Source of the DNA: Melanopsichium pennsylvanicum
Lineage: Eukaryota; Basidiomycota; Ustilaginomycetes; Ustilaginales
DNA length: 25,461 nt
Reading direction: 5' to 3'
NCBI GenBank assembly: GCA_900208305.1
Contig: OAPG01000042.1
Location: forward strand, 1-25,461
Positions within the stretch are counted from its first letter, which is position 1; the number at the start of each line of letters is the position of its first letter. The position numbers and the translations under genes were made by a program. The notes beneath the pieces are model-generated. The model searched no databases. It saw nothing but the letters and a program-made list of their open reading frames with translations, and was not told the DNA's origin. Positions 18,687-19,990 of this stretch are shown here, one piece after another.

Positions 18687-19148
18687 CCTATTCTTGTATA
18701 GGATAGAGTACTTACTCTTACTCTTTTTGATTTATTCCTATCTATACTTATTACTTTCATTTAAATAAAAGAGAAATTAATATAGTAGGTTAGTCTATAA
18801 TAAAATAGATTAATCTATCTAAGAGCCCGCGCGCAATTTAGTCTACATTTTGCGCTTGCGCTGCGCTTGCGCACGGGCGGTAATTAAGTATAGATTTATT
18901 AACGTGCGTATTTACTTTAAATAATCTAGATATTAGATTAGTAATTAGTAAAATTAGTAACGCAGTAAAATAAAACTTAAAAATGCTTTCAATTCTATAT
19001 AATCTACTAGAGATTCTAGTAGTTCTTGTTCCAATTCTACTAAGTGTTGCTTTTATGACAGTAATTGAACGAAAAGTAATGGGATCAATGCAACGACAAA
19101 TTGGACCTAATGTTGTTGGATACTATGCTCTACTACAACCATTTGCAG
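18687..19148. repeat. 462-bp inverted repeat, copy B (nad1 leader and start)
   Basis: Inverted copy of 11862-12323 with three visible differences. It places the nad1 leader and the first 55 nad1 codons in front of an unrelated ORF. Both repeat ends are sharp: 12323/18687 and 11862/19148. Confidence 0.95.
18852..18881 (+). repeat. 30-base GC-rich repeat
   Basis: Copy of the GCGCTTGCGC family within arm B of the 462-bp inverted repeat, matching that at 12129-12158. Confidence 0.92.
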
Positions 19149-19990
19149 TACCTCTAATGGTTGTAGTAGTAATCCTAGGCTTTACAACATTTACTCTCTT
19201 CTATAATGTATGGTTTGATCCTATCTACTGTCAAGAGACTGAAGCCCTAGCTACAAATGCAAAGAATGGGACTGTATCTATAACTGACAAGTGGAATAGT
19301 CGAATTATTAATGGTGCGTGGGCTTCTATTAGCCTATATGGTATGTACAAAGTCTTTCAACTGAAGTCTGGCACTGCTGGTAAAGTAGCAGCGATTACAA
19401 CTATTATGACTACTACTACAACTAGTGCTATCTCAATGCATGAAGTGACAAAACCTACTCTTGGATGGGTTCATTCGCGAATGAAGGAAGCAATTTCTAA
19501 GGGTTTTAGTACTAGTGTTGAAGTTGGTGATACTAAACTATCAGGTTCCCTTAATATCGGTAGTAGTACTACCAATAGCAATCATCAGATTAATTCGCCA
19601 CTAGAGGAAAACGGGTCTATTTTTGATTGGCTATTTTCACTTCTTCCTGATTTTGTGAAACAGGATCTACGAAATAGAGTTCCTGCAACTGATTTCACAG
19701 AACTAAGCGCTATTGACGTTCTACACTTCCAATACAATATTATTGTATTTCTAGTAGCAGTAAGTGCAATTACTGTACTTTATAGCTTTATTCTAATTAC
19801 TATCTTCCGATACAGTGTAAAAAATCGAGATAGTATCGTTAAGATGTCTACACTACTTAGCAAATTTATTCCTTCAGATAAAATGGCAAATAATCTGATT
19901 ATTCTGCTAAAAATGTTTGTAGCTGTAAACATTTCAACAATTATTGCAGGGCTAAACTTTCTATTCTACCACCCTTTTATGTTCAATTAA
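18983..19990 (+). CDS. nad1 N-terminus fused to unrecognised membrane protein
   Basis: Residues 1-55 are nad1 (Gln for Arg at 39), copied within the 462-bp inverted repeat; nad1 similarity stops abruptly after L-L-Q-P-F-A. Residues 56-335 are unlike any complex I subunit. They comprise a helix (about 56-74), a polar section with N-S-R-I-I-N-G-A-W-A-S, a Gly/Thr-rich weakly hydrophobic stretch (about 127-152), and a Ser/Asn-rich loop with N-S-P-L-E-E at 203-208. Two C-terminal helices follow (about 252-278 and 303-329). Codon use is host-like and the 335-codon frame is unbroken, unlike all other accessory ORFs here, so it may be expressed from the nad1 leader. Two broken relatives lie at 6920-8753. 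I do not recognise the family and assign no function. Confidence 0.8.
   Translation: MLSILYNLLEILVVLVPILLSVAFMTVIERKVMGSMQRQIGPNVVGYYALLQPFAVPLMVVVVILGFTTFTLFYNVWFDPIYCQETEALATNAKNGTVSITDKWNSRIINGAWASISLYGMYKVFQLKSGTAGKVAAITTIMTTTTTSAISMHEVTKPTLGWVHSRMKEAISKGFSTSVEVGDTKLSGSLNIGSSTTNSNHQINSPLEENGSIFDWLFSLLPDFVKQDLRNRVPATDFTELSAIDVLHFQYNIIVFLVAVSAITVLYSFILITIFRYSVKNRDSIVKMSTLLSKFIPSDKMANNLIILLKMFVAVNISTIIAGLNFLFYHPFMFN

Follow-up and report, generated by a model that had tools for sequence, protein, structure and literature searches.

The window analysed here, i.e., the whole 25,461-nt contig C42 (OAPG01000042.1) of the Melanopsichium pennsylvanicum assembly (21.1 Mb in 61 contigs), is a stretch of mitochondrial DNA (mtDNA) with a GC content of 31%. 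Pfam identifies in it a cob exon, cox3, nad1, nad2, nad3, nad4 and part of cox1, accompanied by tRNAs; the two antiporter-like genes, nad2 and nad4, are told apart by our own naming, and an RNA-family scan of the window returned nothing beyond the tRNAs and one group I intron. The gene order is that given, read as a circle, in part of a report on Ustilago maydis mtDNA, cob-cox3-nad1-nad4-cox1 (PMC13028006), except that nad2-nad3 are here found between nad1 and nad4. The nad2 and nad3 genes overlap by one base, and passages on Sporisorium scitamineum mtDNA describe the same overlap together with a GIY-YIG ORF between nad1 and a second nad1 3′ end (PMC4466345). In the window, the last 34 nad1 codons are duplicated (91%) at 9199-9300, beyond the GIY-YIG frame at 9815-10402 (minus strand), an arrangement that reads as the signature of an endonuclease gene displacing the nad1 3′ end. 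Within 14906-16342, nad3 continues into a C-terminal extension, followed by a second, diverged nad3 3′ part (16164-16342). GC clusters of ~50 nt (GCGCTTGCGCTGCGCTTGCGC) are dispersed at 16544, 16681, 18849, 21031 and 12112-12161, one of them in each copy of the nad1 leader.

The subject of this analysis is a chimeric ORF that begins as nad1 and continues into an unrelated sequence (Table 1). A first-pass annotation, made from the window's letters, had its coordinates, frame and orientation right; there is no TGA within it. The same annotation described the start of nad1 and its leader as copied in inverted orientation and joined in frame to a foreign membrane protein, which is borne out by the alignment: head and leader differ from their nad1 source (inverted, 12323..11862) at 3 of 462 nt, two in the leader (18735 and 18827) and one in the head (19098). 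The copied nad1 stretch contributes 166 nt to the ORF, with the 296-nt leader upstream, and the PF00146 match covers residues 10-55 of 335 only, i.e., it falls short of a full-length NADHdh match. The breakpoint is sharp, as had been stated: the match to nad1 stops abruptly after 19148, where three bases differ, although six further bases (19152-19157) agree before the similarity ends.

Table 1. Features of the chimeric locus and related elements in the window.
Feature	Positions	Strand	Remarks
Chimeric ORF, 335 aa (table 4)	18983..19990	+	ATG 18983, TAA 19988-19990; 16 full-length copies in the assembly
Head, copy of nad1 5′ end	18983..19148	+	54/55 residues as in nad1; R39Q from base 19098; PF00146 residues 10-55
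Copied nad1 leader, 296 nt	18687..18982	+	GC cluster 18849-18898 inside
Other arm of 471-nt inverted repeat (nad1 5′ end and leader)	11853..12323	-	
nad1, complete, 331 aa	11032..12027	-	
Tail, ~280 codons	19149..19990	+	hydrophobic peaks, conserved blocks; without Pfam match
Segment between repeat arms (nad2, nad3, nad4)	12324..18686	.	genes by Pfam
Perfect 14-nt hairpin, 12-nt loop containing the nad1/tail junction	19130..19169	.	stems 19130-19143 / 19156-19169
Decayed sequence distantly related to the SPLE region of the tail	7862..8146	-	HMM E 1.1e-10

The hairpin at the junction pairs head bases 19130-19143 with their reverse complement in the tail, 19156-19169. In the whole window, a second perfect 13-nt stem with a loop of up to 20 nt occurs in a single case, an AT run at 4546, and a 13-nt stem was found in 0 of 500 codon-shuffled versions of the chimeric ORF. 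The pattern is what a fold-back template switch would leave, an origin suggested by the anatomy of the junction.

The tail matches no Pfam family at E values up to 10. The possibility that it is a diverged continuation of nad1 was rejected, as there is no PF00146 match beyond residue 55, and so was an endonuclease, as neither GIY-YIG nor LAGLIDADG was found. A gene from a linear mitochondrial plasmid was likewise rejected: the two plasmid polymerase families searched are absent from the mtDNA contigs, i.e., PF03175 has no match in the assembly and PF00940 a single one, on the 2.6-Mb, presumably nuclear contig C1. A profile search of the PDB with the tail gave one match, a receptor/cytochrome fusion chain (E 0.012), taken as chance, and an NCBIfam match (13.5 bits against a cut-off of 25) was regarded as noise. 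No tail relatives were found in viral contigs (119 pattern stretches). AlphaFold2 models reached a mean pLDDT of 45 with a 6-row alignment and 48 with an 11-row alignment. Hydropathy is in line with the three tail helices predicted at first pass: beyond the head peak there are three more, one spanning the junction (residues 54-72) and a C-terminal pair (253-271 and 305-323). Alignment with relatives (see below) reveals the conserved blocks SPLE..FDWL, R.RVP and DVLHFQYN, of which the first and last are located N-terminal to the C-terminal hydrophobic pair. The decayed relative of the SPLE region (Table 1) is found within a decayed membrane-protein region at 7050-8950 on the minus strand, and among the nad1 matches across the window there is none to the nad1 head near 7862-8146.

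Two supporting arguments of the first-pass annotation hold in part. That the chimera is the only unbroken accessory ORF in the window is arguable, as GIY-YIG frames are open at 22748-23707 (319 codons) and 9815-10402 (195 codons), neither with a listed ATG start. That its codons are host-like is correct insofar as TTA/TTG are absent from the 26 leucine codons of the tail and also from the 298 counted over six core genes or exons (cox3, nad1, nad2, nad3, nad4 and the cox1 exon). This property is not distinctive: the cox1 intron ORF likewise has 0 of 34, and several other accessory frames each have 1 or 2, so the codon argument carries little weight for the chimera. The absence of TTA/TTG agrees with the description of two tRNA-Leu(TAG) in U. 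maydis, where, in the same part of that report, all codons are nevertheless said to occur (PMC13028006).

Relatives of the tail were collected from ~5.8 billion proteins in three successive searches, with the tail, an alignment and an enlarged alignment, which yielded 4, 10 and 11 sequences (P0001-P0011), each later list including the earlier one; the second search scored the best 7998 candidates by common words. Because of the length of the nad1 match, the repeat, and tail relatives at E values down to 1.7e-72, chance is excluded as an explanation of the ORF. Identity to the tail of the chimeric ORF is 36-62% over ten aligned relatives (P0011 left out). Sub-threshold Pfam hits in these proteins, i.e., K1 and GH39 in P0001, COX2_TM in P0008 (14.9 against 22.8 bits) and others, were discarded as noise. 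Five relatives reach the junction (P0001, P0003, P0004, P0005 and P0006; P0003 and P0004 are near-copies), and all five carry a nad1 head in front of a tail that is 40-53% identical to that of the chimeric ORF, which defines a proposed family of nad1-headed tail proteins. The remaining six (P0002, P0007-P0011) begin downstream of the head position and are uninformative on the head; some of them might have none.

The heads differ in how closely they follow nad1. PF00146 is found at the start of P0001, P0003, P0004 and P0006, and extends to residue 61 in P0001 as compared with 55 in the chimeric ORF. Relative to the nad1 of the window, the P0001 head is identical at 55 of 55 residues, those of P0003 and P0004 at 49 of 55 (exact up to residue 47), and that of P0006, covered from residue 25, at 29 of 31 (exact up to 52). 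The start of P0005 is a diverged piece of nad1, identical to nad1 at 14 of 23 residues and without a Pfam match. The nad1 sequences of structures 7zm7 and 6gcs, which we take to be Chaetomium and Yarrowia, are visibly different from the window nad1 over the head stretch; judged from these sequences, either the hosts of P0001, P0003 and P0004 would be close relatives, or the heads would be unusually constant.

The first-pass annotation had inferred selection or recent origin. Selection is favored by the motifs conserved in relatives. Recency is not supported, given the same fusion in relatives with 40-53% identical tails, for which reason a recent accident was rejected; exchange with nad1 accounts better than a young age for a head so nearly identical to it. 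The tails of P0001 and P0005 are 62% identical, yet their heads are nad1-like at 55/55 and 14/23 residues, respectively, and the residues RVL just beyond the nad1 tract of P0003 and P0004 are also present in P0005. The family is therefore best read as the product of one old fusion whose head was later repeatedly overwritten by nad1. Residue Q39, common to the chimeric ORF and P0005, fits an old fusion but is a single residue. An alternative is that the tail family recombined several times, independently, behind a nearby nad1 5′ end, each capture being young. Head boundaries that vary by lineage (residues 47, 52 and 55) and a junction hairpin suggestive of local template switching are compatible with such captures. 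However, P0005 has a diverged head and has RVL in common with P0003 and P0004, all five head-bearing relatives are alignable directly beyond the head, and exchange within the repeat accounts for young-looking heads without new captures; we thus consider repeated capture unlikely.

The first-pass annotation had named an assembly chimera at the nad1/tail junction as what would overturn it. The ORF is found in 16 full-length matches over nine contigs, plus one partial match in C46; the tail is open and 100% identical in 15 copies, and in the remaining full-length copy, located in C51, the frame is broken. Several mtDNA contigs (C30, C39, C45, C49 and C51) fold back on themselves at points that vary between contigs, probably as long-read artefacts, and the existence of such contigs is what could be held in favor of a misassembled junction. 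Since the fold-backs are taken as read-level artefacts, copy number carries no meaning; the junction itself is constant and recurs in nine contigs, and the two-part build is shared by relatives that come from other data. We regard an assembly chimera at the junction as practically ruled out.

Two pieces of the chimera locus are also copied in contig C1 (2.6 Mb, presumably nuclear) at ~2069324-2069595 (L029, 2325-2596), where the head piece is 99.2% identical to the chimera and 98.4% to nad1. Four nuclear loci have 49-54% GC and long open frames; a fifth, with the mtDNA insertion, has 44% GC. Together with the gene order, the nad2/nad3 overlap, the GIY-YIG arrangement and the leucine codons, these loci make a host in the Ustilaginales likely.

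The two arms of the 471-nt repeat were classed in all contigs by 300-nt flanks on both sides; the counts are lower bounds, as 40 of 61 candidates were scored each time. At least 26 repeat junctions were found, i.e., 15 of the parental chimera type, 8 of the parental nad1 type and 3 recombinants, and since the contigs are redundant and probably near single reads, these 26 are not 26 independent molecules. Both reciprocal classes are represented among the recombinants: the nad1 flank leads into the tail once (C32), and the chimera flank leads into the nad1 body twice (C61 and C58). Diagnostic bases place the exchanges at 18735-18827 (C58), 18827-19098 (C61) and 19098-19148 (C32). C58 is an error-prone contig with four single-base gaps within the repeat. 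One chimera copy in C32 has a head fully of the nad1 type and an open tail. Exchange between the arms within one molecule would invert nad2-nad3-nad4; in C32 the tail flanks the nad2-nad4 segment on both sides, which implies a two-molecule exchange or an artefact rather than a simple inversion. The recombinants are seen in assembled contigs, where an assembler may switch between repeat copies; we infer that they represent real molecules and that gene conversion without crossover would also occur. An identical 177-nt inverted repeat with tRNA-Ser(GCT) is located at 8912-9088 and 21817-21993; its flanks are joined alternatively in other contigs, and it may also recombine.

These exchanges raise the possibility that the repeat is maintained because it serves the recombination or replication of mtDNA, with the ORF as a passenger. 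Flanks of both the 471-nt and the 177-nt repeat are exchanged among contigs, and part of a published account discusses recombination at inverted repeats in mtDNAs of other fungi (PMC4019555). This explanation does not account for the in-frame tails and conserved blocks retained in the relatives, and we find it rather improbable. Still less credible is a non-functional by-product, i.e., an inverted duplication that opened a reading frame by accident: the window does hold decayed ORFs and partial duplications, but 15 identical open copies, together with homologues that share both the build and the conserved blocks, largely refute it.

Taken together, the data are probably best explained by an old fusion whose head and leader are renewed by exchange with nad1 and which encodes an expressed, fast-evolving inner-membrane protein under selection. 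The chimeric ORF would belong to a small, fast-evolving family in which the first 46-62 residues and the leader derive from nad1. The nad1 and chimera copies form an inverted repeat that would recombine, such that head and leader stay near-identical to nad1; exchanges would swap the flanks, and the chimera head would be overwritten by nad1 up to a shifting boundary. Transcription would start from the duplicated nad1 leader and translation would follow the nad1 initiation route, while the first nad1 helix would direct co-translational insertion, so that the tail and its two or three additional helices would come to lie in the inner membrane. With the same leader, start and first helix as nad1, the protein is probably made and inserted like nad1, which is the simplest reading of the sequence. 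Because the tail motifs are conserved, the product is probably under selection.

The build recalls the chimeric mitochondrial ORFs of plant cytoplasmic male sterility (CMS), which, as described in part of the literature, are likewise encoded in mtDNA, join a membrane tail to the leader and 5′ portion of a respiratory gene, and involve repeat recombination. As in ORFs of that type, a respiratory-gene piece and its 5′ flank lie in frame with other sequence, and hydropathy predicts the product to be a membrane protein. In contrast to the plant ORFs described there, the one found here is fungal, belongs to a family whose members from several sources share the nad1 head, and has a head apparently refreshed by exchange. 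The parallel is structural only, an analogy rather than membership. Closer in phylogeny, passages on S. scitamineum mtDNA describe partial gene duplications with GIY-YIG ORFs, nad1 being among the partly duplicated genes in both mtDNAs; there, the copies are without the N-terminal part and are located downstream beside GIY-YIG remnants, whereas the chimera copies the N-terminal part, inverted and fused to a non-endonuclease tail (PMC4466345). The same passages mention 11 hypothetical mitochondrial ORFs without counterparts (PMC4466345), so that a homologue may already be annotated. Inverted nad copies in basidiomycete mtDNA are also described, in part of the pertinent literature, for Agrocybe aegerita, where inverted nad4 repeats mark a linear-plasmid integration site; neither plasmid polymerase family searched is present on the mtDNA contigs here. 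A fungal nad1-headed chimera was not found in the literature, as judged by titles and abstract openings with few subscription journals covered.

The likeness to plant CMS ORFs also suggests a selfish or CMS-like element, in which the tail would disturb respiration or bias mtDNA transmission and a nuclear response would drive its divergence. Tails of the five head-bearing relatives differ by 47-60% from that of the chimeric ORF while four of the heads match nad1, but the divergence rate is uncalibrated against time, and we hold this explanation to be doubtful. Equally speculative is the more general idea of a "constant head, changing tail" system in smut fungi, which would be the equivalent in fungi of CMS genes and where the nad1 promoter, leader and first helix would be a fixed module for expression and insertion, renewed by recombination, and the rapidly diverging tail would be under antagonistic selection in a conflict over mtDNA transmission or respiration. 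The inheritance of mtDNA in smuts has already been studied, as outlined in part of the work on U. maydis lga2 (PMC3498182).

Chimeric ORFs in mitochondria tend to be regarded as accidents peculiar to single lines. In this case, one and the same fusion is found again with tails that have diverged widely, and the assembly contains exchanges that would keep the head identical to nad1. Should the ORF be expressed, it would add an accessory protein to these mitochondria and offer a tractable example of how an accessory or selfish gene can depend on the start signals of a respiratory gene.
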